From Ilex aquifolium (Eukaryota > Streptophyta > Magnoliopsida > Aquifoliales > Aquifoliaceae), in contig OX637410.1 of the NCBI GenBank assembly GCA_951799425.1, positions 1,426,001 to 1,490,000 on the forward strand: a stretch of 64,000 nucleotides of DNA, written 5' to 3'. Below the pieces are notes generated by a model. That model was not told where the DNA came from and searched no databases. It saw only the letters and a list, made by a program, of their open reading frames with translations. Both the position numbers and the translations under genes were made by a program. Below, one piece after another: positions 28,931 through 52,521 of this stretch (positions are counted from its first letter, which is position 1; each line of letters opens with the position of its first letter).

Positions 28931-28945
28931 AAAAAACATTAAGCA

Positions 28946-28963
28946 TTTTTGGCATCGTTGCCG
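28946..28963 (+). other. Primer binding site (tRNA-Asp type), NaB copy 2
   Basis: TTGGCATCGTTGCCGGGG matches the tRNA-Asp primer site TGGCGCCGTTGCCGGGGA with a GC-to-AT change in the middle. It is preceded by AAGCATTT as in NaB copy 1. Confidence 0.8.
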
Positions 28964-29088
28964 GGGAAGGTTAAGCATCGAGTTCGAAGGTGATTTTGGA
29001 CGGCATAGGTAAGTCTCATGAATTTCATCAAGGGCCAAGGTATGTCGTCTCATTTGTAAATAGTTGGTTTTAGTTTGTGTTTTGTGTT

Positions 29089-29908: not shown

Positions 29909-31605
29909 GACATGAGTCCTTTTTGTTTTGTTTTCATGTACAAAGTAGTTAGATTCTTTTATTGCTATTTTCATGATGTTGTAGTGTAGATTTTAGCATG
30001 AAAAAAAAAAGAAAAGAAAAGAAAAGAAAAGGGAGTATCTTATTTCCCATATTACTTTCATTTTTCTCATTGCATGATTCCTTGTGCATTGAGGACAATG
30101 CATGGTTCAAGTTGGGGGGTAAGGTGCACCATTTACATTTTCCACCACTTTTTGTATAGAATAATGGGAAATGTGAAAATTTTGAAAATTTTGGACAATT
30201 TTTGGTGAAAAATATCTAATATTGAACTATATTCTCCTATCCTAATGGTTATGGGATTTGTGATCTTCATTTTGAACTTTGAATACATAAGCACATCATA
30301 GAATTTTATCCTATGCCGGAGTATCACATATGTGTTTTCTTTCGAACTCAACCATAGTGCACCTTGAATGTGTAATTTCAGAAATTTACGGATTGGATCC
30401 ACGTTTTAGAGTTTGACATGCATAGTGGAGATGAAATAAGTACCCGTGAGCTTTAGTGTCAATCATTGTTGGAAGGAACTTACATTTACTCGAGGAACAA
30501 TTTTTCAAATTTGTTCAATAATCTCATTATTTTTGTTTTGGTTAGGTGCATTTGAGTAGTTGATTGAATTTGTCTTGAAATGCATAATGCTCGTCCATGC
30601 TTATCTAGAAATGATCTTAGGACGTCCTTGATTTACTTTGAGCCTTAGCCATTTTCTTGGAAAATTTTATCCCTAGTGCCATGATTGAGCCTTAAATGAA
30701 ATTTTCATTTCCATGCCACACAATTTACCAAGCTAGTGCAAAATGATTACAATTACCACACCTTGGTTGTTCTGGGACTGACTGTGATTAATCATGAAGA
30801 AAGGGAAATGTGGTGAGGAAACCCAAAAAAGGGATGAATGATGTGGAATTCAAATGTGAATGGGAAAATAATGAAAAGTCCAAGAAAAATGAGAGAAAAA
30901 AAAAAGGAAAATGTTAAGGAAAAAAAGAAAAAGAAACAAAGAGTGCGGTGATGGTGTTAGACTGAAAATCCCATGAAAAATGAGATGTTTTTGAAATAAA
31001 AGTCTTTCACTCGGAAAAACCCTATTTTTTATCCTATATCCTTCATTTCATTTGCCTCAATATCACCCCAAGGCCCCATTATAACCCTTGAAAGTCCTAA
31101 ATGATCTAGAGAAGCATGGGGAAAGCATACTTTTAAAGAACAAGAAGGTTGATTTTGCTATCTAATGCCCTAGCATTCCTTTCATGAGATTATGCCAAGG
31201 TTGTTACATTTTTATGCATGTACTTCATTTTTGGATTATATGTGAGCATAATTCATTTTGTGCACAAGATTCTATCTCACATATGCACATGGAGAGCATG
31301 CTCGGATAATCATTGAGTTATTCATTTTTTAGAGAAACCCTTGGTGAGTTTTGCATCAAAGCTGAATTTTGATAGCTAAGTGAATGTGGATTCTGTTGAA
31401 TAAATGCTTAAATTACATATTCATTTCACACACACACGAGTTTTGATAGGAAATGTGTAGGTGGATACTCGAGAATAGCATTTAAGGTTATGATGTGATT
31501 CATGTGTGATTAGTTCGGGTGCATTGGACAAGCTATTTTTGACATCCCAATGCTAGTTAGGATACGGGCATATGTTTCAAATGTTGAATATTAGGAAAAG
31601 AATTT
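29909..31605 (+). other. NaB copy 2 non-coding internal region
   Basis: No ORF is supported. Landmarks are GAAAA repeats near 30010-30030, the Athila-type post-pol motif GAGGACAATGCATGG with TTGGGGGGT near 30090-30120, and AG-rich tracts near 30895-30945. About 90% of the visible blocks recur in NaB copy 3 (44540-45950), for example TGATTGAGCC and ACCCCAAGGCC. Parts also align with AthC 49420-50000. Confidence 0.7.
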
Positions 31606-31712
31606 TGTAGGTACCTTTACTGGAAACCTTCACGAGACAAAACTCGTCCACTAGGGATCACCTAGGGGTTTAAAGGTTTGTTGCATATGCTAAATGCAAT
31701 AGCGAAATTAGA
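31606..31712 (+). ncRNA. Three-hairpin 3' element, NaB copy 2
   Basis: ACGAG-ACAAAA-CTCGT, CTAGG-GATCA-CCTAG and TTGCAT-ATGCTAA-ATGCAA are all perfectly complementary. The element ends about 75-85 nt upstream of the 3' LTR. It is the most regular of the five copies. Confidence 0.65.
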
Positions 31713-31784
31713 ATAGGTTTATGTTTGTTTGCTTATTTTTTACATTTAGTTGCTTGGGAATCGCAAAGCTTAAGTTGGGGGGTG

Positions 31785-33666
31785 TGATGAGCGCGTAATA
31801 TTGCATATTTAACGGCCTCATTACATGCATTTTAACTCAACTTTGCATTTAAGTACTTAGAGTTAGTCGAATTTATGAATAATGTGGAAATTTTGATGTT
31901 GCAGGTAATCATAGGGTAAATGATGGCTTTCGGAACCCTGCAACTAAATGTGGAAGAGTGGTGAAGAGATGGACACATTACATGAGGATTTGGAGGCTTA
32001 AAAGTGAAAGAAATAAAGGAGGTATCGGTGCTTGGTAACATAAGCACCGGCACCATTTGGTAGCAGTACCTCGGTTTTCCTCCTTTTTGACCATGATCCA
32101 TTTATAATCTGAAAAAGTTCGAAACATGAAAGTTTTATATTTGGATGTCCTCTGTATTGTGTCAAACTTTCATCCCAATCTAATGGTTGGATCAAAATTT
32201 ATGACAATTCTACGAAAATTGGTCCGGAGCTGGCACCTTCCGGAAGACCTACCGGTAGATTTTGGCTACTGGAGTAAAACCTACCGATAGGTTTCATCGT
32301 TCTACCAGTAGGTTCTGCCCAGAAGTGCCAGAATGCCTGCAACTCATGCTCCACTTTCTTGAGGGTCCCACCTATGATTCTCCCACTTGTCCCCTGACAT
32401 ATTTTACATACATACATGCCTCCTACACCCCAAAGTCAACCTTGGAAGATGGAGGATGGGAAAATGGGAGAGAAAAGGGTGGAGGCATGGTGGGTGCAGG
32501 CTAGGCTTGTCCTAGCCTGTCCAAAGCCAATCAACTCACCTCCCATTGATGAGAGGCCTGCACACAGGCTATGAGGAGCCTCATGGACGAAAATGCATCA
32601 TCTCTACACCATATATTATGCATTCATACAAGCTTTGAAGGAGGAGGGAGGCTACCTAATCTTAGGCGTAGTTTTAGAGAGATAAGTTAGATTTTTGCAT
32701 TTCTTTTACCCATTTTCACTTGTAATCTTCTGTAAGACTCTTGTAAGCTTCATCTATTGCACTTAATGTCATTTATTTCCAGAGTATTGCAAGTTTAGTT
32801 ATGCATTCTAGATTCTACCATTGTTGTATTGAGTTGTTCTTGCAGTTCAATATTTACAGCTGGGTTTTCTCTGCAACTTTTACATTTTGGTGTGAAATGA
32901 ATTTCTCTTTGTAGTTTACTTCTTCCTAGCTTTAATATATGTTCTAAGTTTCATTCTCAACTCATTTTCATTTCCATTTCTTCTACATGTCTCTTTACAT
33001 TATGCATGTCTTTCCTTTTATTATGAGTAGTTAGATTTTAAGTTGGCTAATCCAAGAGAGAACTCCTCTTGGGTGTGCTAAATCAACTCTTTTTCATTCC
33101 TCCTCGTAGTGTACGTTGATTTGGTTTGACTAGGTTGAGTGTGGACATAGTTGTGAGTTCTTGATACACTGTAGACTTGTCACGGTGTATGCTTGAATTC
33201 TCACCCCCATTTTAGTCCTGCGCTTCCTATGAATCAATCAAACATTTAGACACCAGTGGAGGAAGGTCTTGAGTTGATTTGGCATTCCCATTGGAATGAC
33301 CTCTTCGGATTAGCCAACACTTGTTTCCATTTCATTTTCTATCACAAACTTCACTCGCCAAAACACAAACTCAAAGATTTTACACTTTTTCATTTTTCAC
33401 AAAATCACCTTCACACAATTCACCTTTCTTCCCTGAGGAGACGACCTTGGAATACCCATTCCAAGTAAAACACGACACTTGAAAGTCTCTCTGCGCTTGG
33501 GGAGCACTTTTGTTCACACACACACACATTTCATTTCACTACCACTTTTCTGTTTACCCCATTTCTTGAATCATTCCGAGGGAGAGTTACACTCCCCTAT
33601 CCGTATAAGCCACACACATATTGCGGGATGATGTTCGAAGATTAGGGACAACAACGAAAAACATCA
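31785..33666 (+). mobile_element. NaB copy 2 3' LTR
   Basis: TGATGAGCGCGTAATATTGC starts right after the polypurine tract AAGTTGGGGGGTG. The LTR ends AAAACATCA at 33666 and is followed by unrelated reversed TkA sequence. The length is 1882 bp. It aligns with NaB LTRs 18394-20120 and 41661-43499. Confidence 0.88.
32232..32318. repeat. Mixed palindrome array (TTCCGGAA and CTACCGGTAG), NaB copy 2 LTR
   Basis: ACCTTCCGGAAG and ACCTACCGGTAGAT lie side by side, then CCTACCGATAGG and CTACCAGTAGG. It occupies the same LTR position as the TTCCGGAA array of copy 1: the downstream flank GCCAGAATGCCTGCAACTCA is alignable in both. It therefore combines the copy 1 palindrome with the ACCGGT-type palindrome. 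Confidence 0.85.
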
Positions 33667-36439: not shown

Positions 36440-36626
36440 TGATTAGCACTTAAAATTAGCATATTACTATGCCGTTTTAAGACTAATTGTACTTTGATGG
36501 AGTTTAAGTGATGTCATTTCAGGCCCTAAACTGGACAAGGACCCAAGAACAACAAGTACCACACTTGGATGCAACACCAGCACATTAGAGCCCAAAATTG
36601 GAGAAGCTTTGGAGAACAGCCAGACT

Positions 36627-36986
36627 GTTCGAACGCCAACTCACGTTCGAACGTCCACATTACACTGTAGCAGAATCAACTGCTAAGAGAAGGCGTGTTG
36701 CAGTGAGGAAAGAAGACTGAAGCTCTGAAGCACTTGAGTGTCACGTTCGAACGCCAACTCACGTTCGAACGTGCACTTGACTTGATTGAAGACCAGACTA
36801 CTGCATAGAGTTGGAACTGAATTTCACAGAAGACCAACAGACCACTCGAGTGAAAGGGTCAGAACACATCTGGCGTTCAAACGCTCTTAGTGCAAAAACA
36901 GAAGAAACGTTCGAACGGCAGTCAACGTTCGAACGCCCTTAGTGCAAAAACAGAAAGAACGTTCGAACGCCAACTCACGTTCGAAC
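36627..36986. repeat. CpG-centred palindrome array (GTTCGAAC), AthC 5' LTR
   Basis: Eight exact GTTCGAAC copies start at 36627, 36645, 36745, 36763, 36909, 36927, 36961 and 36979, plus GTTCAAAC near 36874. They are arranged as pairs 18 bp apart (GTTCGAACGCCAACTCAC then GTTCGAAC). The array ends 95 bp upstream of the TATA box. The 3' LTR has the same array at 50767-51126 with two or three CpG transitions. Confidence 0.95.
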
Positions 36987-37080
36987 GTTCTCCACAGACT
37001 GGCAGCAGAGTGGTTGGCTTTTCACTTGGACTTGGGCGGCAAACACTATTCCTTCACCTCCTCTTGTCTCCTCCTCTTGC

Positions 37081-37090
37081 CTATAAATAC
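37081..37090 (+). promoter_or_regulatory. TATA box of AthC 5' LTR
   Basis: CTATAAATAC follows a CTCCTCTTGC pyrimidine stretch, the usual core-promoter setting in Athila LTRs. The same box is at 51221 in the 3' LTR and 1618 in the solo LTR. Confidence 0.8.
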
Positions 37091-38395
37091 TCCCCTTGTT
37101 GGAGAGCTGAAGGAGCCAAGTAGAATAGTTGATGGAGGCTTAGACTCCCACTCACATTGTAGATTTAGTTTATTTTCCTTGTATGAAGTCTTTATCTTAG
37201 AGATTAGTTTGGCTTTAGTCCAACATCTCTTGCTTGTTATAAAAGTAGTTTTATGCTTATGCTTATTCTTATGCTTTCATTTTACATGCATAGAAGAGAG
37301 ATAGTTCATCTTTTGGTTGAGGAAGCAACCCTCCAATTCTTGGTTGAGGAAGCCACCCTCCAAATGTGACTAGCTTTCTTCTACTTTTATTATTCATGCA
37401 TTTCACTTCCATTGTTTGAGCTTCTTTCTTTCTTAGAAGAGTGAAACTCTTCCACTTTTCTAGAGCTTTACCAAAGCCGTGAATGGTGGAACGTGATTCA
37501 CCCATTCTTTGTTAAAGATTGGCTCCGTGTTTGTTGTTACTTTATCTTTTAAGTTCTCTACTTGGAGGGATGAGCATCACTCACTTTTCTAGCTTTACCC
37601 AAGCCATGAAGAGTGAGTAGTTTCTCATTCACTCTTTAGTAAGAGGAGAAGGGCATGTATAAGTTATCCGGGAATCATATTTGTGCATTGTTTTTATGCT
37701 TAACGTTTATTTCTTCTTGTTATTGGATGATTGATTGCATCTAGCAAAGCTAAGTTACTTTGTATAACTGTGGGCTCTTTCTATGACACGGATGACTCTT
37801 GCATAGAAAGACTTATCAGTTCAAGGCAAGTACCCCGGCTAGATCCTCATGACTACCCTTCAATCCTCCCCCTTATTGTACTTCATTTAAAGAATGAAAT
37901 ATTAATATCATGATTGGATGTCTTGTAGAAACACTTGCTTGTTTGTAGACGGGTTAAGTCTCGGCACAGACAATTCTTGTAAACTTCTAGAAAGACATAG
38001 GAATCATGTTCTTAATTCTCACAATCCATCTTTATCTTCCGATTAACTTGCTGTTGACACGGGACTTAATTGAGTTATCAAGCACAATTATGACAAACCG
38101 GATAACTAACTACATGTCCAGATTCTTGCACTAAAGAGTGACTCTTTTTAATTAGCACTTATCTCCTGTTTTGTTAAGAAAATCTTCTTGGAAAGAATCT
38201 TATATTCTGTCCAGGAAAACTCATATCTCACAGCAAATCTCTCAAGGGTTACAATCAATAGATCTCTACCACTGCTTACCTCAGAAATATCAACAAAAGT
38301 TCCCTGTGGATTCGACTCCGGACTCAAACCGGATTATTACTACAGCTTGACCGCCTGCACTTGGGTGTACACATTTCGGATCAAGACCAAGTTTT

Positions 38396-38413
38396 TGGCG
38401 CCGTTGCCGGGGA
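38396..38413 (+). other. Primer binding site (tRNA-Asp type), AthC
   Basis: TGGCGCCGTTGCCGGGGA is perfect and lies 6 nt after the LTR end. It is the hallmark primer site of Athila-type elements and is shared with the NaB family. Confidence 0.93.
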
Positions 38414-38508
38414 ACCTTTAAAAGGTGTTTTAAGGTGAAAGGTAAAAAGACCTTCAACGTTGTGTATATTCTTTGGTTTACTGTAAATAACTTTGTTTTA
38501 TTTTCTTT

Positions 38509-39599
38509 ATGACTGAGGGCACTCCTCACTTCTAAAATTTGCCGGCAGAATCGTGTGAGTCCGTGAATCAGCCTGAACCAAATTCACCTAGATCAGTAGC
38601 AGACTCTTGTGAGGGTAGTATGGCAAATAATGAAAGAAATGGAGAAGTCCCTATGAGAGAGGAGGAGGTCCCTAACATCCGAACTTTGCGGGATTACTTA
38701 AATCCCACAAGAAACAGTGTCCCCTCTTGTTTTATTTTTCCTGAAAATGTTCCCCTCTTTACTGTAAAGCCGGGGACAGTGCAGTTATTACCCATGTTTC
38801 ATTGATTGGATGCAGAAAATGCATATCTGCATATAAAAGATTTTGAGGAAGTGTGTGGAACATTTCAAGACAATTCTGAATTGGCCAAGATGAAACTGTT
38901 TTCTTTCTCCTTGAGGGATAGAGCCAAACAATGGTTAAATTCTTTAAAAGCTTTTTCAATACCCAACTGGCAAGCATTACAAAATGAATTTTTTAGGAAG
39001 TTTTTTCCTCTACACCGCACAAATGCACTGAAAAGGCAAATCATGAATTTTGCGGTTAAAGAAGGAGAAACTTTTTATCAAAGTTGGGAGAGATTCAAAG
39101 ATCTGCTCCAATCCTGCCCACATCATGCTTTTGAAAATTGGACTTTGGTAGGATTTTTCTATGACTCCTTACCCTCTAGACTACGTCAGTTTGTCGAAAT
39201 GATGGCCCAAGGAGAATTCATGGGAAAAAGTCCGGAGGAGGCATTCAATTTTTTCGACACCATATCTGACAATTCTCAGATGTGGGACTCAGCCTCCCCT
39301 ACCACTGTAGAAGTCAGACCATCTACTTCCCAAGGAGGAAAATATGTCTTGAGAGAGGATGATGACTTAAGAGCAAAAATGTCCACATTGTCTCGAAAGC
39401 TTGAAGCTTTAGAGATGAAGAAAGTCCATCAAGTTGATGTTAGCCCTTCCACCGAGCAAGTGTGTGGAATCTGTGCGCTAACAGGACACCCTACTGGGGA
39501 GTGTCCCACCATCCCAGCATTCAAAGAAGTCTTGTTGGAACAAACACATGCAGTTTCCAACTTCAACAAGCCCTACTCCAAACTCCAACCCATATTCTG
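38509..39599 (+). pseudogene. AthC gag (capsid and zinc knuckle)
   Basis: An ATG at 38509 is in frame with the gag but a TAA follows nine codons later. The conserved part starts with RTLRDYLNPTRNSVPSCF and continues LDAENAYLHIKDFEEVCGTF, LFSFSLRDRAKQWLNSLKAF, FFRKFFPLHRTNALKRQIMN and FEVVGFFYDSL-like GFFYDSLPSRLRQFVEMMAQ. The zinc knuckle CGICALTGHPTGEC (CX2CX4HX4C) is near 39465-39506. Only the early TAA, one TGA (38803) and a frameshift at about 39599 disrupt it, consistent with youth. This is the standard Athila capsid. Confidence 0.93.
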
Positions 39600-40790
39600 A
39601 AACATACAATCCAGGGTGGCGAAACCACCCTAACTTCAGTTGGAAGAACACACAACCAATACCCATGAACCAATAACAAGTGTCATACCCACCACCCCAA
39701 GGACCTCATGCATATCAACCATATCAACCACCACAAAAGAGGAACCTTGAGGACACACTAAATCAGTTCATGCAAAGCCAAATGAATTATAACAATAATT
39801 CCACACAGGCTTTCACTGATTTCAAAATCCAGACCACTCAATCTTTTGAGGATCTTAAAAGCCACATCCAAAAGTTGACTCAATCCATGGTCATACACGA
39901 AAAGGGCAAGTTTCCTGCCCAACCAAAGCAACCACAAGGCCAATTCCATGTAGGAAACCCTTCAACAACAGGAAACACCCAAGACCAAGCCCAAGTTGTC
40001 ACGACACTAAGAAGTGGCAAGGTGATTGACAAGACAATCAGAGACATACTCATTCCCAAACCAAGACCTGAGTCAAGCCCAGCCAATCCATCATCTGAAC
40101 CTGAACCAATTGAGACTAAACTTGAGAAAGACCCTGAGCCTGTGATTGAACAAAAGCAAGAACCTTCTGAAAAAAGGGAACCTTTGTATCCCATTCCGGC
40201 TCTGTTTCCTCATCGACTCAAAACCAAACAGAAAGTGAAAGATCAGCCTGAAATTTATGAGCTTTTTAAGCAAGTAAATATCAACATCCCATTTCTGGAT
40301 GCAATCAAACAAGTTCCGTCTTATGCCAAGTTTCTAAAAGACTTGTGCACAGTCAAGAGAAGCCAGAATGTCCAAAAGAGAGCTTTCCTCACGGAACAAG
40401 CTAGTGCTCTTCTTCAACATAAAACCCTTCCAAAATACAAAGACCCAGGGTGTCCAACTATCTCATGTATCATTGGGAACTTCAGGATTGAACAAGCTTT
40501 GTTAGACCTTGGAGCCAGCGTTAATTTGCTACCCTACTCTGTCTATCAACAGTTGGGTTTGGGTGAATTTAAACCCATTTGTGTCACACTCCAGTTGGCC
40601 GACAGATCTGTCAAAACCCCCAGAGGGATTGTTGAAGATGTGCTTGTCCAAGTAGATAGTTTTGTCTTCCCTGTTGACTTCATTGTTCTGGATACTTAAC
40701 CAACAATAAATTCGGAGAACCAAATTCCCGTCATTCTTGGTCGGCCATTCCTAGCAACTTCCAATGCCTTAATCAATTGCAGGAATGGAG
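39600..40790 (+). pseudogene. AthC gag C-terminus and aspartic protease
   Basis: After the frameshift a Pro/Gln-rich linker (PPPQGPHAYQPYQPPQKRN) leads to LEDTLNQFMQSQMNYNNNST, a helical segment also found in the NaB ORF. The protease follows with CPTISCIIGNFRIEQALLDL, the active-site triad DLGAS, VNLLPYSVYQQLGL, LADRSVKTPRGIVEDVLVQV and FPVDFIVLDT. A TAA at 40697 replaces an expected CAA, then the frame continues (VILGRPFLATSNALINCRNG). The active-site residue order D-L-G-A is usual for Athila. Confidence 0.92.
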
Positions 40791-41660
40791 TCATGAAATT
40801 AACTTTTGGGAATATGACTCTCGAACTGAACATTTTCAATATTGCTAAACATCCAGAAGAAGAAAAGGAAGAAAGGGAAGTAAACTCCATAGAATCTTTG
40901 ATACAGGAACATCTAGATGATACATTCTGTGAGGATCCTACTGAATCATCTCCGTTAGAACTCATCTCATCAGAAACAACAGATGATGACCCAAATCTAC
41001 CAAGTGGCCCTACTCATACTGTTGAGACATGGGCACCCAAATTCGAAGAAATTTCACCAAGTAGCACAAAGCCAGTCTCATCAAGTGTTAGCCCACCAAA
41101 GCCTGAATTGAAACCTCTCCCATCTGACCTCAAATATGCATTTTTAGGAAAGAATGAGTCATACCCAGTGGTAATTTCATCTAAACTCACAGACTTACAA
41201 GAGCCTAAACTGATTGAAGTTCTTCGAAGTCATAAAAGCATCATTGGATGGACCATCGCTGACTTGAAAGGTATAAGCCCGTTAATCTGCAATCATGCCA
41301 TATACCTTGAAGAGGATTCAAAACCCTCTCGTCAAATGCAGCGACGACTAAACCCTCACATGAAGGAAGTTGTGAGAATTGAGGTACTCAAACTCTTAGA
41401 TGCAGGGATAATCTTCCCTATCTCAGATAATAAATGGGTTAGTCCAACCCAAGTTGTGCCAAAAAAATCTGGGGTCACAGTGGTAAAAAATGATGCAAAT
41501 GAACTAGTACCAACTCGAGTCGTCACAGGATGGCGAATGTGCATTGATTATCGAAAACTCAATTTGGTCACTAGAAAATATCATTTTCCTCTCCCATTTC
41601 TTGACCAAGTCCTAGAGAGAATTGCAGGCCATGCATTTTACTGTTTTTTTAGATGGGTAT
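40791..41660 (+). pseudogene. AthC reverse transcriptase, N-terminal part, cut by NaB copy 3
   Basis: An acidic linker (EEEKEEREVNSIESLIQEHL) precedes the RT. The RT reads LKYAFLGKNESYPVVISSKL, IGWTIADLKGISPLICNHAI, RRLNPHMKEVVRIEVLKLLD, WVSPTQVVPKKSGVTVV and WRMCIDYRKLNLVTRKYHFP. It stops at FYCF followed by TTAGATGGGTAT (the LDGY box, one extra T), where NaB copy 3 begins at 41661. The catalytic YVDD box lies beyond the break and is absent. Confidence 0.93.
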
Positions 41661-43499
41661 TGATGAGCACAAAATATTGTATATTTCAAGGCCTCATTAC
41701 ATGCATTTTAACTCAACTTTTGCATCTAAGTACTTAGAGTTAGCCGATTTTATGAATAATGTTGAATTCTCGAGGTTGCATGTTTTTATAGCTTAAATCA
41801 TGTATTTTAGGACCTTGCAACTATGATGGATGTGTTGTGAGGGCATGTACACATTACATGAAGATTTGGAGGCTTAAAAGTGAAGAAATCAAGGAGGTAT
41901 TGGTGTTTGGGAACAAAAGCGCCAGCAGCCACACCACTGGGTTGAAGAGCCTCGGTTTTACTCAATTTTGACCATGATCCACTTCGAATCTGAAAAAGTT
42001 CAAAACATGAAAGTTTTAGATCTGGATGTCTTCTGTATTGTGTCAAAATTTCAGCTCAATCGGACGGTTGGATCAAAAGTTATGCCAATTCTACGAAAAC
42101 TGGTCCGGAGCAGAAAAACCATACCGGTACGCCGTACCTGTATTGTACCATACCGGTACTCAGTACCGGTACGCCGAAGCTACTGGTGTACGAACAGCCC
42201 AAAAACGCCTGCAACTCATCTCCACTTGCTTGGGGTCCCACCTACACTTCTCCCACTTGCCCCCCAACATTTCCTTACACATTTTCATGCCTCCCTTACA
42301 CAATTAAAAGACTTTGGAGGCCATTGCATTAATGAGGATGGGACAGAAGGGGTAGCCTGGGGGAGGCTTGTCCTAGCCTGCAACACCCATCCATTCAGCC
42401 CCCTATTGATGGAGGTCTTTCACACAGCTAAGGGGGACCACCATGCACGAAATTTGAAGGCTCACACTCCATATACTCAGCATTATTCAGCATTGCAAAG
42501 GGTGTGGCTACCTAAGCTTAGAAAATCCAAGGAAGAAAATGATGAATAGTAGATAGAAGAGCTTAGATTTTTCCATTCTCTTCTCCATTTCAATTGTTGT
42601 AAGCTTTAATTTCTTGTAATCCTTAACTCTTGCACTTTAATCTCATCTATGTCAAGTATATTTCAAGTTTAGTCTTGCATTCTAGATTCCACCATTGTTG
42701 CTTCCAAGTTTTCTTCATTTTAAGTTTAAAATGGGTATTAAATATTTTTATTCTTAGTTTAAGATTTCTTGCATTAATTTAAGTTTCATGCTCCATTTCA
42801 ATTATGTCCATTTACATTATGCATGTCTTTCTTACTTTCATGAGTAGCTAGATTTTAAGTTGGTTAATCCAAGGGAGAACTCCTCTTGGGTGTGCCGCTT
42901 CAACTCATTTTCATTCCTCCTCTCAGAGTACGATGACTCGGTTTGACTGGGTTGGGGTGAGGACACGGTTGTGAGTTCTTGATACACCGTAGGCATTGTC
43001 ACGGGGTATGCTTGAATCCTCACCTCCATTTTAGTCCCGAGCTTCCCACGAATCAATCGTACATCTAGGCTCTATTGGAGGAAGGCTTGACTTGATTTGG
43101 TATTCCTATTGGAATGACCTCTTTGGATTAGCCAACACTTGTTTTATTGCATTTTCATTCACAAACACAAACACCAAAACACAAACAAAAGATTTTACAT
43201 TTTCTTTTCCTTTTGCAAAATCACCTTCACACAACTTGAACTTTCATTCCCTGAGGAGACGACCTTTGAATACTTTTCCAAGTAAAACACCGACACACAA
43301 AAGACTCTTTGCGATTGGGGAGCACTTTTGTTCACACACCCGCATTTCATTTCACATTTTGTTCATTCCATTCACCACCATTCCGTTGTTCCTATCTCTT
43401 GCATCATTCCGAGGGAGAGTGACACTCCCTTAGTCCTATAAGCCATACACACATTGAGGGATGATGTTAAGAGGTTAGGAACTACAACGGTCTTCATCA
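41661..43499 (+). mobile_element. NaB copy 3 5' LTR
   Basis: It starts TGATGAGCACAAAATATTG and ends GTCTTCATCA, 1839 bp. It is followed by ATCATT and the primer site. It shares the AAGTTGGTTAATCCAAGGGAG and GGAGACGACCTTTGAATAC blocks with copies 1 and 2. Confidence 0.9.
42119..42192. repeat. Palindrome array (TACCGGTA), NaB copy 3 LTR
   Basis: ATACCGGTACGCCGTACC, CATACCGGTACTC and GTACCGGTACGCC give three TACCGGTA cores within 75 bp, followed by a degenerate TACTGGTGTAC. The downstream flank (ACGCCTGCAACTCA) matches NaB copies 1 and 2, which have different palindromes here. Confidence 0.9.
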
Positions 43500-43506
43500 A
43501 TCATTT

Positions 43507-43524
43507 TGGCGCCGTTGTCGGGGA
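43507..43524 (+). other. Primer binding site (tRNA-Asp type), NaB copy 3
   Basis: TGGCGCCGTTGTCGGGGA lies 7 nt after the LTR end, with one substitution from the AthC site. Confidence 0.9.
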
Positions 43525-43645
43525 AGGTAAAACGTTGAGTTCAAAGGGTAATTTTGGGCGGCATGGTAAGTCTCGTGATTTTCATCACGGGCCAAGGTAT
43601 GTCGTTTCTTTTGTAAATATTTTGTTTTAGTTTGTGTTTTGTATT

Positions 43646-44539
43646 ATGTCTTATAATTTTTATGAAAATGTATCAAATGCCTCATATTATGAAAATGTGT
43701 GTGAGATTTGTGATGACTATGGACACATTACTAGTGAGTGCCCAAGAATGGCCTCTTATTTTGAAAATGTTTGCGAAATTTGTGGTGAGTATGGACACCT
43801 CACTAATGAATGCCCAAGAAATTATTTGGTTCAAGACTTTGCATACGAAGGTTCAAATTCATTTTTGGCCTCCGAAAATTTTTACCCCAATCATTATGTT
43901 ACACCGAGTTATCCGAGTTATGGTTGGGAGAATGAACCTCATGATTTTTCATCCAATCTCACACCACCAAATGAATTTTGCCATTATCCAACGTATGAGG
44001 ACTCAACTAAACAAGAATTGGAAAATACGTTTTACAAGTTTATGCAAAGCCAAATGGAATGGAATGCCCAAATAACTCAACAACTTGAAACATTGACTAA
44101 TGCTATAATTGCTATGCATGAAGAACAACATCTTGAGCATAGTCAATGTATTGAGGTTGATCATCACAATGGAATGCATATTGATGTTGAATCTCCCACC
44201 ACTCTTGATTGTGAAAAATTTGATAAAATTATTATCTCACAAGAGGCTAATGAGCCCAAGGTCATTTTGCCATCTATGAGTGGTGTTGAGATTCACATTT
44301 CTCAACTTGGGAAGGGCATTGCAATGGAGTTAAGTGTAGAAAGTTTTCAAGATAAATTGTATACTCCATTGTTGGGATTGCATAAACTTGCCTACACTTC
44401 TATTTGGTTGAGATTTTTGACTTCTTATCCTTTGTATTGTTGGATAGATGGATTAGTAAGGGCATTTATACAACAAAAAAATTGTAAAATCAAAAAAATC
44501 AATGGGCGCAAGTTCATATCCGAATTGAAGCCGGATTGA
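43646..44539 (+). CDS. NaB zinc-knuckle protein, Gag-derived, intact
   Basis: This 297-codon ORF starts at the first in-frame ATG (43646) and ends TGA at 44537. Two CX2CX4HX4C knuckles are at residues 19-32 (CEICDDYGHITSEC) and 43-56 (CEICGEYGHLTNEC), 24 residues apart; copy 2 has only one. Residues near 120-150 (QELENTFYKFMQSQMEWNAQ) match the post-knuckle helix of AthC Gag (LEDTLNQFMQSQ), so the protein is a Gag tail without capsid. A conserved C-terminal block (KLAYTSIWLRFLTSYPLYCW, KIKKINGRKFISELKPD) has no relative that I recognise. It may bind RNA for packaging by a helper element or act on element expression; function is unknown. Confidence 0.8.
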   Translation: MSYNFYENVSNASYYENVCEICDDYGHITSECPRMASYFENVCEICGEYGHLTNECPRNYLVQDFAYEGSNSFLASENFYPNHYVTPSYPSYGWENEPHDFSSNLTPPNEFCHYPTYEDSTKQELENTFYKFMQSQMEWNAQITQQLETLTNAIIAMHEEQHLEHSQCIEVDHHNGMHIDVESPTTLDCEKFDKIIISQEANEPKVILPSMSGVEIHISQLGKGIAMELSVESFQDKLYTPLLGLHKLAYTSIWLRFLTSYPLYCWIDGLVRAFIQQKNCKIKKINGRKFISELKPD

Positions 44540-45950
44540 CATGAGCCCTCTTTGTTTTACTTTCATGTACATAGTAGTTAGATTTCTTTTATTGTTATAT
44601 TTTTATTTTCATAAATGTTGTAGTGTAGACTTTAGCATGAAGGTTGTTTACCTCTTCCTAATTTGGACTCATTTCACTTTGAGCATCATTGTAGCAAATC
44701 TTATTGGGTATCATGTTCTAGTCTAAGTTGGGGGGTATAAACAAGCTTTTTGTGTTTTATTTTTCCGTTAATGTATACTAAAGAAAAAAAAAAAAAAAAA
44801 GAGGGGTATCTCATTCCCCGTTTTACTTTCATTTTTCTCATTGCATGATTCATTGTGCATTGAGAACAATGCATGGTTTAAGTTGGGGGGTGAGGTGCAC
44901 CATTTACATTTTCCACCACTCTTTGTATAGAATAATGGAAAATGTGAAAATTTTGAAAATTTTGGTTCTAATATTGAACTATATTCCCCTATCTTAATGG
45001 TTATGGGATTTGTGATTACTTGATCTTCATTTTGAACTTTGAATACATGATCACATTATAGAAGTTTATCCTATTGCTAAGAGTATCACATACTTATTTG
45101 CTTTTGAACTCAACCATAAGTGCACCATGAACTTGTAATTTTGGCAATTTACGGATTGAGTTCACATTTGAGTGCTTGACATGAATAGTGGAGATGAGTA
45201 AGAACCCATGTGAGCTTTAATGTCAATCCTTGTTTGGAGGGAACTTACATTTACTCAAGGAACAATTTTTCAAATTCCAAATTTGTTCAATAATTTCATT
45301 ATACTTGTTTTTGTTAGGTGCATTTGGATAGTTAATTGACTTTGTCTTGATATGTACAATGCTCTCCCATGCCTATCTAGAGATGATATTAGGCCATTTT
45401 TGAATGCTTTGAGCCTTTGCCTTTTTCTTGTGAAAAGTTTATCCCTAGTGCCGTGATTGAGCCTAATTGAATTCGTTTCTATGCCATACATTTGACCAAG
45501 CCAATGCAAAATGATATAAATCTACCTTACATTGGTTGTTCCTTGAGCTGAATATGAGTGATTGTAAAAGAGAAGGAAGTATGGCGTGGAAACTCAAACA
45601 AAAGGGATGAATGAAGTTGAAACTCAAAGAGTTGAACGAAAAAGAATGAAAATCCAAGAAAAGGAGAAAAAAAGGGTGAGAAGAAGAAAAGAAAGAGAAA
45701 AAGAAAAAGAAAAATGTTAAGGAAAATAAGCAAGAAAAGAAACAAAGAGTGAAGTGATGGTGTTAGCCTAGAAATCCCACAAAAGGGAGATCTTTTTGAA
45801 ATAAAGGTCATTCACTCGGAACAACCCTCTTTGTTATCCTATATCCTTCGTTTCCCTTACCTCAATATCACCCCAAGGCCTAGTTATAACCCGTGAAAGT
45901 CCTAAATGATCTAGAGAAACATGGGGGATGCATACTTTTAAAAGAACAAG
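44540..45950 (+). other. NaB copy 3 non-coding internal region
   Basis: No ORF is supported. It carries TTGGGGGGTATAAAC near 44730, an A-tract near 44785, the motif GAGAACAATGCATGG with TTGGGGGGTGAGG near 44860-44895, and an AG-rich tract near 45660-45720. Blocks are collinear with NaB copy 2 (29909-31140) to 45950. Confidence 0.7.
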
Positions 45951-46080
45951 AGAAGTTGAAGTGGAAAACCCAGCAAACGGTAATAGTTTTACTATTAATG
46001 GTCAGCGGTTAAAACCATTTTTGGAGGATTTTATTAAAAATGTGGAAACCATTCTTTTAATGGAACCAAAGTACTCCACT
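45951..46080 (+). pseudogene. AthC integrase C-terminal end
   Basis: The frame EVEVENPANGNSFTINGQRL, then KPFLEDFIKNVETILLMEP, is the extreme end of the Athila integrase (the NGQRLKPFL box). It is joined directly to NaB copy 3 sequence, showing that the central part of AthC pol has been deleted. Confidence 0.85.
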
Positions 46081-46560
46081 GAAATTCGCGCCTGCCGACA
46101 CTCCAGTGGATCAGGTCAGGAAAAATCTACTTCAACCCGACCCACTGGGGCGCCTTTATAAGGCACCCATTTTTTCTCCAAGCCGCCGCAGTTGCCCCCC
46201 CCCCCCCCATTTCTTCTTCTTCTTCTTCTTCTTTTTCTTTTCTTCTTCTTCTTTCTGTTCGTCTTCGAGTTCTCTGTTATCCAAGAAACCACCCATGACC
46301 ACACACTCCACAAACATGATATTTTGCTTCATGTTTTGCATTTTAATCTTATATTTGCTCATGGGTGTTCTTCTTTTATTCGCACTCACACATAAGGATT
46401 TTCAGCCTACCCGAAATCCAGATCTATGCACAGATGAGTAATTTTTGTGTTTTTATTTGTAGGTCTCAGTGGGTGAACAGATCTATACCATTCAACTTCG
46501 TCTCCACAATCCATGAATCGGTAAATTCGAAACATTGGGGACAATGTTCAGTTTAGGTTG
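46081..46560 (+). other. AthC pol-env intergenic region with splice-acceptor-like site
   Basis: It contains a 14-C run (46195-46208), a TTC/TTTC microsatellite (46211-46258) and a pyrimidine-rich acceptor-like site TTTTTATTTGTAG ending at 46462. The Athila-type motif CATTGGGGACAATGTTCAG with AGGTTGGGGGGTATG lies near 46533-46569. The latter has counterparts in NaB elements. The acceptor could serve a spliced RNA for the downstream ORFs. Confidence 0.55.
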
Positions 46561-46753
46561 GGGGGTATGATCAGTTCATCAGTTCATTAATTCATATTTT
46601 CGTAATTTTTTAAAATCTTTTATATTGTCGTTGTTGATCATGTTTGAACATTGATTGTAGAAATTGATGATTATGCTTATGAATCAGCTTCAATCGTCTT
46701 TGTGACTGGCAGACGTTAAAGAACCAGATAGTGAGTCTTAAAACTTAGCAATC

Positions 46754-47158
46754 ATGGATGTAAAAATTTTTTGGTTTAGCCTAGGAGTTCTACGTACCTT
46801 TCCATCTGATGTACATACTATGATCATGAGAAAAGCAAGATTAGTAAGGAAGGCTGAAATCCAAGAAAAACAAGCGAAACCCCTCTGTGGCAGAAGCAGC
46901 TTTGCCAAACGTCGTCGTGCCAAAAGGCTTGGTGCTTGTAAACAGTGTGGCAGAGTCTTTCATGAAAAAAGGTACAACCAGTGTTCTGAACCAATTTCCG
47001 GTAGCGCACTTGATCGATTACACTGGATAGTGAATGGGCTGAGTAAGGATTACCCTGATACGCCATGCTATTCCGGTACTTTGCTTAACCGGTTTGTGAG
47101 AGAGGAAGTTGGGAGAGTTACTGGTTGTCCATTCTACACAGACACAGAGGGAGACTAG
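46754..47158 (+). CDS. Virus-like cysteine-rich nucleic-acid-binding protein ORF inside AthC
   Basis: This is an intact 134-codon ORF from ATG 46754 to TAG 47156. Residues 46-56 are GRSSFAKRRRA, an Arg-rich block, followed by C62-x2-C65-x4-H70-x6-C77 (CKQCGRVFHEKRYNQC) and ISGSALDRLHW. This combination and order (G-R-S-aromatic-A-basic-RRA, compact Cys/His cluster, ISG..LDRL) is what I know from the small cysteine-rich nucleic-acid-binding proteins at the 3' end of Betaflexiviridae genomes (vitivirus, carlavirus and allied genera), several of which suppress RNA silencing. The length also fits. It lies between integrase and the env-like ORF of AthC and is flanked by AthC-type motifs. It does not resemble the Gag knuckles here. 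Viral origin is inferred from motifs only; no search was run. Confidence 0.62.
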   Translation: MDVKIFWFSLGVLRTFPSDVHTMIMRKARLVRKAEIQEKQAKPLCGRSSFAKRRRAKRLGACKQCGRVFHEKRYNQCSEPISGSALDRLHWIVNGLSKDYPDTPCYSGTLLNRFVREEVGRVTGCPFYTDTEGD

Positions 47159-47433
47159 GATTAGATAATTTTCTGTAAGAAATGTGTACTTTTGTTGGGG
47201 GAGTGAAAGCCAAAGGTCCGAATTTGTTGTAAAAAGTATAAAAATCTTTTTGTATAAATTCTTTTGACTGAAATGAAAATATGGGCCGAGTAAGGAATGT
47301 CCCAAAATACCAACCTGAAGCGTGGGTAGGGACTTATCCTGAGAGGACATAGTTTTTTTTGATTTAAAATTATGTGTTTAGCCCTCTTTGATTGTGTATA
47401 ATGTAGTGGAGAAAAATTTTAATTTTTTGGTTC
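47159..47433 (+). other. AthC spacer between the small ORF and the palindrome array
   Basis: No ORF is supported. The stretch is AT-rich with TATA-like AAAGTATAAAAATC near 47233, and then GGAATGTCCCAAAATACC. I see nothing else in it. Confidence 0.5.
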
Positions 47434-47702
47434 AACGTTCGAACGCCAGGTGACGTTCGAACGTCAGCTGCTTACAGTACTCAGCCTCTGATGAAGTTTC
47501 TGATGAAACTTAAAAGTACTGGGAGCTCAATCCGTTCGAACGCCAATAGACCGTTCGAACGAGATTAACGTTCGAACGCCAATAGAACGTTCGAACGTTA
47601 GATGCTTACAGTACTTTGGCCTCTGACAGAAACTCAAAAGTACTGAGAGCTTACCACGTTCGAACGATTTGTTTAAATCCTTCTAGTTACGTTCGAACGT
47701 TA
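47434..47702. repeat. Internal GTTCGAAC palindrome array upstream of the env-like ORF
   Basis: Eight GTTCGAAC copies occur, near 47437, 47455, 47533, 47552, 47570, 47588, 47658 and 47691, mostly as ACGTTCGAACGCC or ACGTTCGAACGT. Two tandem blocks share CTTACAGTACT and CAAAAGTACTGAGAGC. The palindrome is the one in the AthC LTR, but the intervening sequence is different. A TATA box follows 14 bp after the last copy. Confidence 0.93.
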
Positions 47703-47711
47703 TGACTCAGG

Positions 47712-47720
47712 CTATAAAAG
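47712..47720 (+). promoter_or_regulatory. Putative internal TATA box for the env-like ORF
   Basis: CTATAAAAG lies 14 bp after the palindrome array and about 210 bp before the ATG at 47930. It repeats the arrangement of the LTR promoter (palindromes, then TATA box). If transcription starts about 30 bp downstream, the ATG at 47702 is excluded and 47930 is the first start of the conserved protein. Confidence 0.55.
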
Positions 47721-47929
47721 CCTGGTTCGTCTTCTTCATTTCAAAACCCTCCAAAAGCTCTGAAAACCCGAAAAACCCTTGGAGACTCTTTACTACCCAG
47801 ACCCCAAAACCCCAACCATTCCCCATTTTCACCAAAAATCAACCCTCCCAAGACATTTGCCACTTCAAGAAGATCCATTTTCACAAAGAAATCAAAGATT
47901 TCAAAACCCTCCAACTAAAAAATCAAAAA

Positions 47930-48808
47930 ATGCCAAGAGTCAAGCTTCCTGCCAAGAGGAACCCAAACACCCAAGAGCCTAATTTTGTCGAAGAAGTGTT
48001 GGAGGTGAGAGAAGGAATGCCACCACTCACAAGGAGATACGACAAGAATCGATTCCCCACAGCTCTGAAAGCTGACAGGTATGAAAATTTCTACCAAAAC
48101 AAAGCCATTGTTTGTGAAAGAGATGTGATTTTGGCTGATTTTGCGGAGTTGGGGATCTTTGTGGAGATGGAGAGGAGAGGGTGGTTGTTTTATTTGAGGA
48201 ACGGCGGTGAGGCCGTAGTCGACTTGGTGCGGGAGTTTTACTCCAACGCCGAGATCATCGACGGGGAAATTCGAACATATGTAAGGGGAGTCCATGTGGA
48301 CGTTGATAAAAATTATATTTGGGGGATAAGGCAAGAAGTGCCTCGGGTTCCAAATCCCACTTATCCCCCAAGGAAGAATGTGGCGATGAATGAAGTGGGG
48401 AAGGAACTGACTGAAGTGCCCAATTTTTCGTGGACTGGGAAGAAATTTTTTTGACAAGGGGAGCTCACCGACAAATACAAAATGTTAAATTTGATTGCGG
48501 TGTCCAACTTCGATCCCATATGCGATTGGAAAAGGGCAAAGCATTGATCTCCCCTCCCTAATTTTGACAGAAATGAAAAAGGGGTGTGATGTGAAGAGGA
48601 ATTCGCTTCCCTTCGGCACCCTAGTGACAGAACTGTGCAAAGACCATGGGGTCAAGGTGAAACCCGAGATGGAAATCCAAAAGCCAATGGGGCCACTGAA
48701 CAAGGCATCCTTTCGAAGGAGCCAAAGTCATAGTGGCGGCCCGGCAGTCAGACAAGAGAGTGAGAGAGAGGGATCCCTGTTCTTGTTCTTGTTTTTTATG
48801 TTTGTTTA
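47930..48808 (+). pseudogene. AthC env-like 3' ORF (plant transposon protein domain)
   Basis: From ATG 47930 (MPRVKLPAKRNPNTQEPNF) the frame shows FYQNKAIVCERDVILADFAE, VVDLVREFYSNAEIIDGEIR, TYVRGVHVDVDKNYIWGIRQ and ends at a TGA (48452), then continues ELTDKYKMLNLIAVSNFDPI. After a one-base frameshift near 48535 come SIDLPSLILTEMKKGCDVKR and SLPFGTLVTELCKDHGVKV. This is the domain found in the 3' ORF of Athila-lineage elements, sometimes called env-like, though no clear signal peptide or membrane span is visible. AthF has the same region at 61146-61905. Only one stop and one frameshift break it. Confidence 0.78.
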
Positions 48809-50410
48809 AAGTACTTCTTTTTATGAATTTCTTCTTTGATAGTTGTAAGTTTTTGTGTGATTGTGAATGAATCGAACCGTTGATATTAAAAGATGATATT
48901 TTGAGAAATGAATGGTCTCATTCATCACTTTTATTTGTTTTAAATGCATTTGTAGATTTAGCATAAAATTAAAATGTGATGGAACAAATGTGGATGTTAA
49001 GAATGCATGCTAGAGTAAATATGCACATGATCGGTTTGACACCTCAATTTATCAACTGAGACTTATAACCACATTTCTTGAAAAAAAATTGGTATTCTCT
49101 CTATACTTAAATTGTCATATGTACATCAATATTTGTTATTTTAAAAGTACAGGAAGATTTGACTCGAAAATGGAATTGGTATATAACCAATACCCCCTGG
49201 AAAACCCGACATACACAGTGGAGATAACAAAGAACACCAGGGTGAGTTTCGAACCTAACGATGCTTTCGAGAGACAATCGATGTTTACTCAAGTAAATTC
49301 TTTTCACTCTCAATTTTTGAATGATCTCATTAACCTTGCTTTGATTGACGCACTTAAAAGTGATCTATTGACATATCCCACAAGGAACCATCGCATACAA
49401 CACATACATGTGCACATGCTTGAGAAATGATCTTAGGCCATCTTTGATATAATATTGAGCCTTAGACCTTTCTTTGACAAAATTTATCCCTTGATTAGCC
49501 ATGTTTGAGCCATCAATGTATGAATTTTTCTTTGATAAACCTATATTATTACCAATCCACAGGAAAACATACTTGACTTACCTTGGCTATCTAATTTTCT
49601 TACATCCTCTTTGTAATATGACACAGAAAAAGGAAAAGAAAAAGAAGCATTCAAGATTATCATCCAAGAAGAGTTGATTGGAATAATTGAAACAGAAAAG
49701 AAGCAAAAAGGCAAGAACTTGCCAAGAAAGTGAAAAATGAGAAAAGTGAAAGAAAGAAATGTCATCTCTAGGCGAAATATCAAAAAGTTAGAAAGAGGTG
49801 TGCTACAATACGTAAACAGAAGATAGCTTTTGAAAATCCCTGACGTCGTTTCGTTAGCCACTGACCTCTGGCCACGCTACAACCTATGAAAAGCCCTAAT
49901 TGATCTCAAGTCTGTTACATTCATGTGTTGTTAATCAAAATTGGGATATGGTAAATAGCAATTCTTTAAATTGCGTCAATATTCTTCCATGAGATTATGC
50001 CAAACATAAGTAGTTGCTTCTTTAAAATTTCACTCATTTCCTAATTGTGCATGTGATTTTTCAATTGGCCATCTTCTGGTCACATGATCTGTGAGAAACA
50101 AGTCACTATAATCAGAGTGAACTTTTGCTGAGGGTATACTACGTGAGGTTTTTGAAATCGAAACTATCCATGGAAGGTGGTAAAAGGGAGTATTTGTTAT
50201 ATAACAATTCCTGTTGCTTGAATGATCATTCCTACTGCATTGAGAATTTCAAATACCAATGTAACAAATGATAATTTTTGCATAGAATGAATACCTGTGA
50301 AATAAGGACATGTGTGATATAAGTCAAAATTGAGAATCTGGTGTCCCAACGACCATGATGCTAATTTACTTTAATCAGCACTCTCCTATGCACATCTGTT
50401 CGACTGAAGT
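48809..50410 (+). other. AthC 3' non-coding region
   Basis: About 1.6 kb without a supported ORF. Near 49425-49520 (AATGATCTTAGGCCATC, TGAGCCTTAGACC) it aligns with NaB copy 2 near 30600-30700. Near 49720-49910 (AAGTGAAAAATGAG, GCTACAATACGTAAACAG, GACGTC) it aligns with AthD reversed at 27700-27870. This collinear conservation between families is unusual for non-coding LTR-retrotransposon sequence. Confidence 0.65.
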
Positions 50411-50523
50411 TTGTGGGTAGCTTCCCTGGAAACCCTCACGAGATAACACTCGTCCGCTAGAGTAAACCTAGTGGTTCAACGGCTTGTTGCATAAGCTAAA
50501 TGCAACCGGATGACCTACGAAAA
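50411..50523 (+). ncRNA. Three-hairpin 3' element, AthC
   Basis: It reads CACGAG-ATAACA-CTCGT, CCGCTAG-AGTAAAC-CTAGTGG (7 bp with one G-U) and TTGCAT-AAGCTAA-ATGCAA. Compared with NaB copy 2, the second stem changes on both arms yet still pairs. It ends about 80 nt upstream of the 3' LTR. Confidence 0.65.
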
Positions 50524-50574
50524 TGGCATTAGGAGTAGATTTTTCTCTTTTTTTTTTATATTACTAGAGACTAG

Positions 50575-50595
50575 CAATATTTAGGTTGGGGAGTG
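50575..50595 (+). promoter_or_regulatory. AthC polypurine tract
   Basis: AGGTTGGGGAGTG lies immediately before the 3' LTR start TGATTAGCAC at 50596, the expected plus-strand primer position. Confidence 0.8.
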
Positions 50596-52521
50596 TGATT
50601 AGCACTTAAAATTAGCATATTACTAATTGTACTTTGATGGAGTTTAAGTGATGTCATTTCAGGCCCTAAACTGGACAAGGACCCAAGAACAACAAGTACC
50701 ACACTTGGATGCAACACCAGCACATTAGAGCCCAAAATTGGAGAAGCTTTGGAGAACAGCCAGACCGTTCGAACGCCAACTCACGTTCGAACGTCCACAT
50801 TACACTGTAGCAGACTCAACTGCTAAGAGAAGGCGTGTTGTAGTGAGGAAAGAAGACTGAAGCTCTGAAGCACTTGAGTGTCACGTTCGAACGCCAACTC
50901 ACGTTCGAATGTGCACTTGAGTTGATTGAAGACCAGACTACTGCATAGAGTTGGAACTAAACTTCACAGAAGACCAACCAACCACTCGAGTGAAAGGGTC
51001 AGAACACATCTGGCGTTCGAACGCTCTTAGTGCAAAAACAGAAGAAACGTTCGAACGGCAGTCAACGTTCAAACGCCCTTAGTACAAAAATAGAAAGAAC
51101 GTTCGAACGCCAACTCACGTTCGAACGTTCTCCACAGACTGGCAGCAGAGTGGTTGGCTTTTCACTTGGACTTGGGCGGCAAACACTATTCCTTCACCTC
51201 CTCTTGTCTCCTCCTCTTGCCTATAAATACTCCCCTTGTTGGAGAGCTGAAGGAGCCAAGTAGAATAGTTGATGGAGGCTTAGACTCCCACTCACATTGT
51301 AGATTTAGTTTATTTTCCTTGTATGAAGTCTTTATCTTAGAGATTAGTTTGGCTTTAGTCCAACATCTCTTGCTTGTTATAAAAGTAGTTTTATGCTTAT
51401 GCTTATGCTTTCATTTTACATGCATAGAAGATAGATAGTTCATCTTTTGGTTGAGGAAGCAACCCTCCAATTCTTGGTTGAGGAAGCCACCCTCCAAATG
51501 TGACTAGCTTTCTTCTACTTTTATTTTTCATGCATTTCACTTCCATTGCTTGAGCTTCTTTCTTTCTTAGAAGAGTGAAACTCTTCCACTTTTCTAGAGC
51601 TTTACCAAAGCCGTGAATGGTGGAACGTGATTCACCCATTCTTTGTTAAAGATTGGCTCCGTGTTTGTTGTTACTTTATCTTTTAAGTTCTCTACTTGGA
51701 GGGATGAGCATCACTCACTTTTCTAGCTTTACCCAAGCCATGAAGAGTGAGTAGTTTCTCATTCACTCTTTAGTAAGATGAGAAGGGCATGTATAAGTTA
51801 TCCGGGAATCATATTTGTGCATTGTTTTTATGCTTAACGTTTATTTCTTCTTGTTATTGGATGATTGATTGCATCTAGCAAAGCTAAGGTACTTTGTATA
51901 ACTGTGGGCTCTTTCTATGACACGGATGACTCTTGCATAGAAAGACTTATCAGTTCAAGGCAAGTACCCCGGCTAGATCCTCATGACTACCCTTCAATCC
52001 TCCCCCTTATTGTACTTCATTTAAAGAATGAAATATTAATATCATGATTGGATGTCTTGTAGAAACACTTGCTTGTTTGTAGACGGGTTAAGTCTCGGCA
52101 CAGGCAATTCTTGTAAACTTCTAGAAAGACATCGAAATCATGTTCTTAATTCTCACAATCCATCTTTATCTTCCGATTAACTTGTTGTTGACACGGGAGT
52201 TAATTGAGTTATCAAGCACAATTATGACAAACCGGATAACTAACTACATGTCCAGATCCTTGCACTAAAGAGTGACTCTTTTTAATTAGCACTTATCTCC
52301 TGTTTTGTTAAGAAAATCCTCTTGGAAAGAATCTTATATTCTGTTCAGGAAAACTCATATCTCACAGCAAATCTCAAGGGTTACAATCAATAGGTCTCTA
52401 CCACTGCTTACCTCAGAAATATCAACAAAAGTTCCCTGTGGATTCGACTCCGGACTCAAACCGGATTATTACTACAGCTTGACCGCCTGCACTTGGGTGT
52501 ACACATTTCGGATCAAGACCA
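50596..52521 (+). mobile_element. AthC 3' LTR
   Basis: It is 1926 bp and nearly identical to the 5' LTR, with the palindrome array at 50767-51126 and TATA box at 51221. It ends GATCAAGACCA, then GTAAA, the right target duplication. Confidence 0.94.

Follow-up and report, generated by a model that had tools for sequence, protein, structure and literature searches.

A zinc-ribbon protein is encoded 3' of the coat protein in vitiviruses, carlaviruses and some trichoviruses (PMC4472227). The vitivirus member, p10 of Grapevine virus A, is an RNA-binding protein with an arginine-rich motif and a zinc finger that suppresses RNA silencing (PMC9104223), and relatives from mandariviruses and carlaviruses act as suppressors or pathogenicity factors (PMC12172455). 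A gene of this kind is found in the 64,000-nucleotide stretch of Ilex aquifolium DNA analyzed here (contig OX637410.1, positions 1,426,001 to 1,490,000 of the forward strand; hereafter the window), in which an open reading frame (ORF) at 46754-47158 (+) lies within an apparently Athila-type long terminal repeat (LTR) retrotransposon, AthC. It is moderately probable that this Athila-type family encodes, between integrase and an env-like ORF, a virus-derived nucleic-acid-binding protein (NABP) that binds RNA and weakens silencing of the element.

Grapevine virus A p10 and the window protein share a KRRRA block, a Cys-Cys-His-Cys cluster, a DRL stretch after it and an acidic tail. The viral protein differs in having 90 amino acids, in lacking the N-terminal part and in a CXC spacing where the window protein has CX2C, and the window gene is encoded by a plant retrotransposon rather than as the ORF5 of a vitivirus. 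The NABPs of trichoviruses and pruneviruses (Peach mosaic virus, Cherry mottle leaf virus, Prunevirus armeniacae) are of similar length and align over nearly the whole protein, but the window gene is borne by an element and has no adjoining coat-protein gene in the copies scanned.

Among plant LTR retrotransposons, the likeness is to elements with additional ORFs (env-like, the antisense ORFs of Retand and Grande, the orchid AlkB), in that the gene has sense orientation, lies between pol and the 3' LTR and is retained in many copies. The antisense additional ORFs are described as lacking similarity to viruses, and none of the additional ORFs in the available part of the same review is of the Viral_NABP or Carla_C4 kind (PMC7264820). 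The orchid AlkB element is likewise one that gained an RNA-acting domain found in some flexiviruses (PMC9289625). The screen of 121 angiosperm genomes from the same source names PMD, G-patch, AIR1 and 2-ODD (AlkB-type) domains among others; the Viral_NABP domain is not named in the accessible text of that screen, which started from reverse-transcriptase regions with a five-consensus filter (PMC9289625). Endogenous sequences of non-retroviral RNA viruses provide another parallel, as a betaflexivirus-like sequence in a plant chromosome was described by Chiba et al. in 2011, but that cucumber sequence is replicase-like (PMC3136472), whereas the present gene is multicopy and lies inside a replicating element. 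No report of a Viral_NABP or Carla_C4 ORF in a retrotransposon was found in a full-text collection from which most subscription journals are absent, such that an earlier description is possible.

The ORF begins with ATG, extends for 134 codons and ends with TAG, two codons before the common form of 136 codons. Its product has a predicted isoelectric point of 9.7 and contains an N-terminal part, the arginine-rich block GRSSFAKRRRA at residues 46-56 (46889-46921, +), a C-X2-C-X4-H-X6-C cluster at residues 62-77 (C62, C65, H70 and C77; 46937-46984, +) that is a putative zinc finger, and the stretch ISGSALDRLHW. The ORF, the block, the cluster and ISGSALDRLHW had been claimed in an earlier, sequence-only reading of the window, and all are recovered when the sequence is read again. 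When the stretch is replaced by random first-order sequence, 134 codons are reached in 10 of 2000 draws, so that the length of the ORF is by itself weak evidence, unlike the profile match. Homology to viral proteins is established by the Pfam family Viral_NABP (PF05515), which matches residues 7-115 (109 residues) with E=7.1e-11 and 42.9 bits against a cut-off of 23, and by Carla_C4 (PF01623), with E=1.1e-6 and 29.0 bits against a cut-off of 20.9. Five Pfam families are listed up to E=10, and these two are the only ones to pass their curated cut-offs, so no retrotransposon or host family offers a better match. The order of an arginine-rich block followed by a Cys/His cluster is that of the viral motif (PMC9104223). 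Across an alignment of 41 plant and metagenome sequences, PF05515 matches every row and PF01623 40 of the 41; the first two cysteines of the cluster are invariant, and the arginine-rich block is largely kept in the sequences labelled A1, A2 and A4.

Comparison with individual viral proteins gives the same picture. A third protein search returned 53 sequences, some of them named viral proteins, and the named relatives include those of Peach mosaic virus, Grapevine virus A, Garlic virus D, Shallot virus X, Hemp virus T, Elderberry carlavirus A, Potato virus H and Birch carlavirus, as well as others. The closest matches are trichovirus-, prunevirus- and vitivirus-type proteins, not those of carlaviruses. 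By BLASTP against a set of 10 viral proteins, with composition correction off and E-values valid for that set only, the window protein is 47% identical to Grapevine virus A p10 over 64 residues and 35% identical to the Peach mosaic virus protein over 126 residues. Profile-profile alignment with hhalign relates the window group to an alignment of 11 viral proteins at 99.1%, a second group of about 182 amino acids to the same 11 proteins at 98.9%, and the two groups to each other at 97.7%. An AlphaFold2 model of the window protein is helical, with a mean pLDDT of 69 and a pTM of 0.36. When this low-confidence model was compared by Foldseek to BFVD, which contains viral proteins only, the top match was a Glyptostrobus prunevirus suppressor (E=3.8e-5), followed by proteins of Prunevirus armeniacae and Cherry mottle leaf virus. 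The first seven rows are all small flexivirus proteins, five of them named as suppressors or as nucleic-acid- or RNA-binding proteins, one as NBP and one as a 15 kDa protein; with rmsd values as large as these, the matches probably owe much to the sequence term. Scans of IMG/VR and GTDB contigs found no relative.

An origin from a host zinc ribbon, the ribosomal protein eL43 (L37a), or by chance convergence is of practically negligible probability. A phmmer search does match eL43 in the PDB at E=0.0087, and one relative is labelled L37AE/L43A by its source, but the 109-residue match to the viral profile has E=7e-11, and none of the five Pfam hits with E up to 10 is to a ribosomal family. As an identity for the window protein, eL43 was rejected, given that its match is poorer than that of the viral profile.

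The presence of the gene in many copies is also established. The host genome searched comprises 800 Mb in 103 contigs, and the best 150 of 4115 candidates were scored with the window protein; each matches over 133 or 134 residues, and 136 of the 150 have no stop. The ORF is thus found in other copies of the element, at least 150 of them near full length, and is no private insertion. Within the window itself, tblastn found no copy of the ORF besides the one at 46754. The surroundings of 20 copies, taken as 9.9 kb each, are collinear with the window element upstream in 18, downstream to the end of the env-like region in 17 and on both sides in 16. By Pfam, copy L014 has gag, protease, integrase, the NABP gene and the env-like family PF20167 in order, with reverse transcriptase missing; L028 has protease, RNaseH, integrase, the NABP gene and PF20167 in order; and L022 has reverse transcriptase-RNaseH and the start of integrase. 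The longer env-like homologues in L014 and L028 exceed the PF20167 cut-off. Starting from integrase instead, among the first 50 of the best 120 of 22328 candidates, 26 have a known NABP gene 573-630 bp downstream, one of these 26 copies (L073) being badly broken; 26 of 50 is a lower bound, as the known gene positions were the 150 scored and 14 picked by eye.

The sequence-only reading had placed the gene between integrase and the env-like ORF. That order is observed in L014 and L028, and the window copy has itself lost its integrase to nested DNA. At E up to 0.01, the ORFs scanned around the gene in L014, L022 and L028 have either no Pfam match or one to a retrotransposon family. An endogenous betaflexivirus fragment with adjoining coat, movement or replicase genes was considered and rejected, as no such genes are around the gene in these three copies. 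The order gag-protease-reverse transcriptase-RNaseH-integrase, followed by the env-like ORF, was pieced together from L014, L022 and L028 and is partial in the window copy. Of 20 other stretches searched for the primer-binding site, 11 have it with a leader of the same kind, and L016 adds a twelfth site whose leader is different. The site itself, TGGCGCCGTTGCCGGGG (38396-38412, +, in the window), presumably matches tRNA-Asp, the primer that Athila is taken to use, and PF20167 is assumed to mark the env-like ORF of Athila. On these assumptions and the domain order, assignment of the carrier to the Athila-type Ty3/gypsy elements is supported.

The selection on the gene was evaluated with two samples of copies. 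The first consisted of 40 copies from the top of the protein-similarity list, with rows containing stops passed over, and is biased toward conserved proteins because it was chosen in that way; all 40 frames are open, a dN/dS-like ratio (non-synonymous to synonymous change) is 0.54 for close pairs and declines to 0.10 for distant ones, and near-fixed differences between subfamilies are distributed 1/0/12 by codon position. The non-coding stretch directly 3' of the ORF, at window 47174-47293, is 94-95% identical between subfamilies in this protein-picked set, conserved like the ORF. The copies of the second sample were picked by the upstream spacer alone. Of 39 copies of the window subfamily, 38 have the ORF and 21 have it intact, which here means that it starts with ATG and runs for 133 codons or more without a stop; of a second subfamily, 20 of the 39 other hits were taken, with the ORF present in 18 and intact in 12. 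The uninterrupted window ORF had been put forward earlier as a weak hint of selection. The ORF is indeed intact, but with such proportions of intact copies intactness alone is no sign of selection.

Variants within the window subfamily, the younger one, are distributed 22/23/18 by codon position when found in at least 2 copies and 10/13/10 when found in at least 3. Given that variants within this subfamily look neutral, selection is visible only between subfamilies. There, 18 rows were set against 39, a count that includes the window, and the differences that are near-fixed at 80% are distributed 2/0/11; of these 13, 11 are synonymous, and codon 23 holds both of the 2 non-synonymous ones (p=2e-4 against 0.667 for transitions). 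The distribution is 2/0/13 at a threshold of 70% and 1/0/11 at 90%. In the second subfamily, variants are distributed 6/12/17 in at least 2 copies, 1/2/11 in at least 3 and 0/0/7 in at least 5. Comparison of a third subfamily, represented by L108, with the 35 gapless rows of the 39 flank-picked ones gives a mean dN/dS of 0.24 (range 0.18-0.30). Few amino-acid changes thus separate the subfamilies, and from the near-fixed pattern together with this ratio, purifying selection most likely acted on the gene during the period in which the element replicated. It is therefore very improbable that the gene is a passive endogenous viral fragment hitch-hiking in the element. The many copies with stops and the neutral-looking variants of the young subfamily are what a passenger would show, but a passenger would not account for near-fixed differences of which 11 are synonymous and 2 fall in one codon, nor for a similar ORF length in three subfamilies and in metagenome relatives at 66-87% identity.

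The third subfamily, for which a single copy was read (L108, L109), is 88% identical in protein to the window subfamily and mostly has an open frame of 147 codons; the upstream in-frame ATG is also present in relative P0005, and is GTG in P0006. A 461-bp stretch of L108 has at least 40 identical copies on 13 contigs, all covering the gene (40 of 40 scored of 2320 candidates, L108 counted), and since 40 is the number scored, more identical copies are possible. This subfamily has amplified very recently or is still amplifying. In L109, the end of pol lies upstream of the gene and is 62% identical to that of L028.

Relatives of the window protein also occur elsewhere. A protein search found 12 among 29 candidates; 11 of the 12 are 66-87% identical over at least 84% of the protein and lie on metagenome contigs, and the twelfth is partial. 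Relative P0011 differs by replacements that include Cys-to-Tyr, Pro-to-Leu and Arg-to-His, which may reflect C-to-T decay of methylated DNA. The longest contig given for P0006 is of 2941 bases, as is that for P0020; both proteins are NABP-like and from the same source, and a single contig perhaps carries the two. A profile search gave 376 relatives, of which the best 120 include many of about 182 amino acids, among them proteins from the genomes of Rhamnella, Orobanche, Xanthoceras and Populus. Many members of this NABP-type group (P0014-P0121) are on metagenome contigs, and one cluster has 315 members. This 182-amino-acid group, group B, was not found in the host genome among the best 150 of 3113 candidates with P0014; all are 36-40% identical, and therefore are copies of the window type.

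Capture of the gene from a virus by AthC, as the sequence-only reading had it, is likely. That a viral-type gene resides in the element follows from the Pfam matches and the viral relatives; the tree is compatible with transfer in either direction. In an unrooted tree of 39 proteins, the window group lies on one side of a branch supported at 76/75 (90/92 with P0126), the carlaviruses split off at 99/99, and the plant and metagenome groups A, B and C are intermixed with branches of trichoviruses, vitiviruses and allexiviruses; several of the viral branches are long and unsure in their placement. A single clade of A and B is weakly rejected by the approximately unbiased test (p-AU 0.03, for groups named after the tree was seen), and one of A, B and C, all the plant groups, is not rejected (p-AU 0.27). 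An unlikely alternative is that flexiviruses acquired the gene from a retroelement or plant. This direction would fit the position of the plant groups among the viral branches, the single clade that is not rejected, the lack of a root and the long viral branches. It accords poorly with the occurrence of the gene in several virus genera (PMC4472227) and with the far greater diversity of the viral sequences, with a mean column identity of 32% for 11 viral proteins vs 73% for 11 of group A, the latter collected by similarity to the window protein.

The proposed function is by analogy to what related viral proteins do. In short, a gene for a basic zinc-finger protein of about 134-147 amino acids would have come from a plant RNA virus, probably via template switching during reverse transcription. 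The protein would be translated from a subgenomic mRNA or from a spliced one, which could use a candidate 3' splice site shortly before the ORF; the CAG of this site, at 46710-46712 (+), is retained in 29 of the 31 rows aligned there. Through its arginine-rich helix and zinc finger, the protein may bind the RNA of the element or small RNAs, and this binding would lower the RNA silencing directed at the element, in the way that p10 acts for a vitivirus.

The same basic, arginine-rich, zinc-finger protein could instead bind RNA in the service of the element's own cycle, helping to package, export or chaperone genomic RNA and with no part in the suppression of silencing; this proposal is less probable. 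The adjoining env-like ORF is likewise without a known role (PMC7264820), and a retroelement protein required for genomic RNA export has been reported (PMC10309623), but Gag may already bind RNA, and relatives in the viral family are described as suppressors. The zinc knuckles that bear on Gag are those of a nested relative, gag-like and encoded in an ORF at 43634-44539 inside the nested DNA of the window element. It is also conceivable, at rather low probability, that the protein is a nuclear zinc-finger regulator of host or LTR transcription. Chrysanthemum virus B p12 has been reported as such a nuclear regulator of transcription. The strongly basic block of the window protein resembles a nuclear localization signal, and a signal of this kind with a zinc finger is noted in mandarivirus proteins (PMC12172455), but the window family stands apart from the carlaviruses by the 99/99 split.

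Several observations weigh against a virus-derived suppressor of silencing. Viral NABPs are multifunctional, and so suppression is one of several possible roles. The even spread of variants within the young subfamily looks neutral, as expected of decay after insertion; in addition to the bias of the first set of copies, the second and third subfamilies were first met via protein searches, which leaves residual ascertainment. The support for the window-family grouping is modest, and from the tree and its p-AU values viral capture, more than one capture and the reverse direction are all possible. The structure model is weak and its BFVD matches come from a viral-only library, and a fold search of the PDB with the model gave no match.

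A broader proposal, that plant retrotransposons as a class are armed with RNA-virus suppressors through more than one virus-retroelement transfer in several angiosperm lineages, and that the burst is due to a silencing shield, is possible but doubtful. The lineages meant are the 134-amino-acid window group, the 182-amino-acid group (Populus, Xanthoceras, Orobanche, Rhamnella) and perhaps a third. How high-copy plant retrotransposons escape RNA silencing is an open question, which becomes testable through one small protein in an element that has a conserved relative of a viral suppressor and a subfamily of such recent amplification. If the reading of a virus-derived suppressor is correct, a gene of a non-retroviral RNA virus has been turned into a working retroelement gene, which bears on how retroelements gain accessory genes.

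The window element itself spans 36440-52521 and is oriented on the forward strand (+). It is bounded by a 5' LTR at 36440-38389 (TG...CA, 1950 bp) and a 3' LTR at 50596-52521 (1926 bp), with 5-bp flanks of ATAAA and GTAAA. The LTRs are 97.4% identical by gapped blastn, and their Kimura two-parameter (K2P) distance is 0.0142, from 18 transitions and 9 transversions in 1926 sites. Plant substitution rates are 0.65-1.3e-8 per site per year, at which the element is roughly 0.5-1.1 million years old. A gag piece (PF03732) is at 38806-39600, a gag/protease piece (PF13650, slightly under the cut-off) at 39680-40699, and the start of reverse transcriptase at 41345-41647, where it is broken off. Foreign nested DNA at 41662-45949 replaces approximately 2.2 kb of pol (the remaining reverse transcriptase, RNaseH and integrase) and resembles window 28937-33656 in swapped order. 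The final 68 residues of pol are at 45955-46158, and the env-like ORF is in two parts, at 47702-48454 and 48495-48809, each a partial match to PF20167 under the cut-off. Elsewhere in the window, another integrase-end fragment on the reverse strand (62230-61988, -) is 56% identical to part of the AthC-family pol end, and two adjoining 300-bp direct repeats at 8186-8785 are 92% alike.
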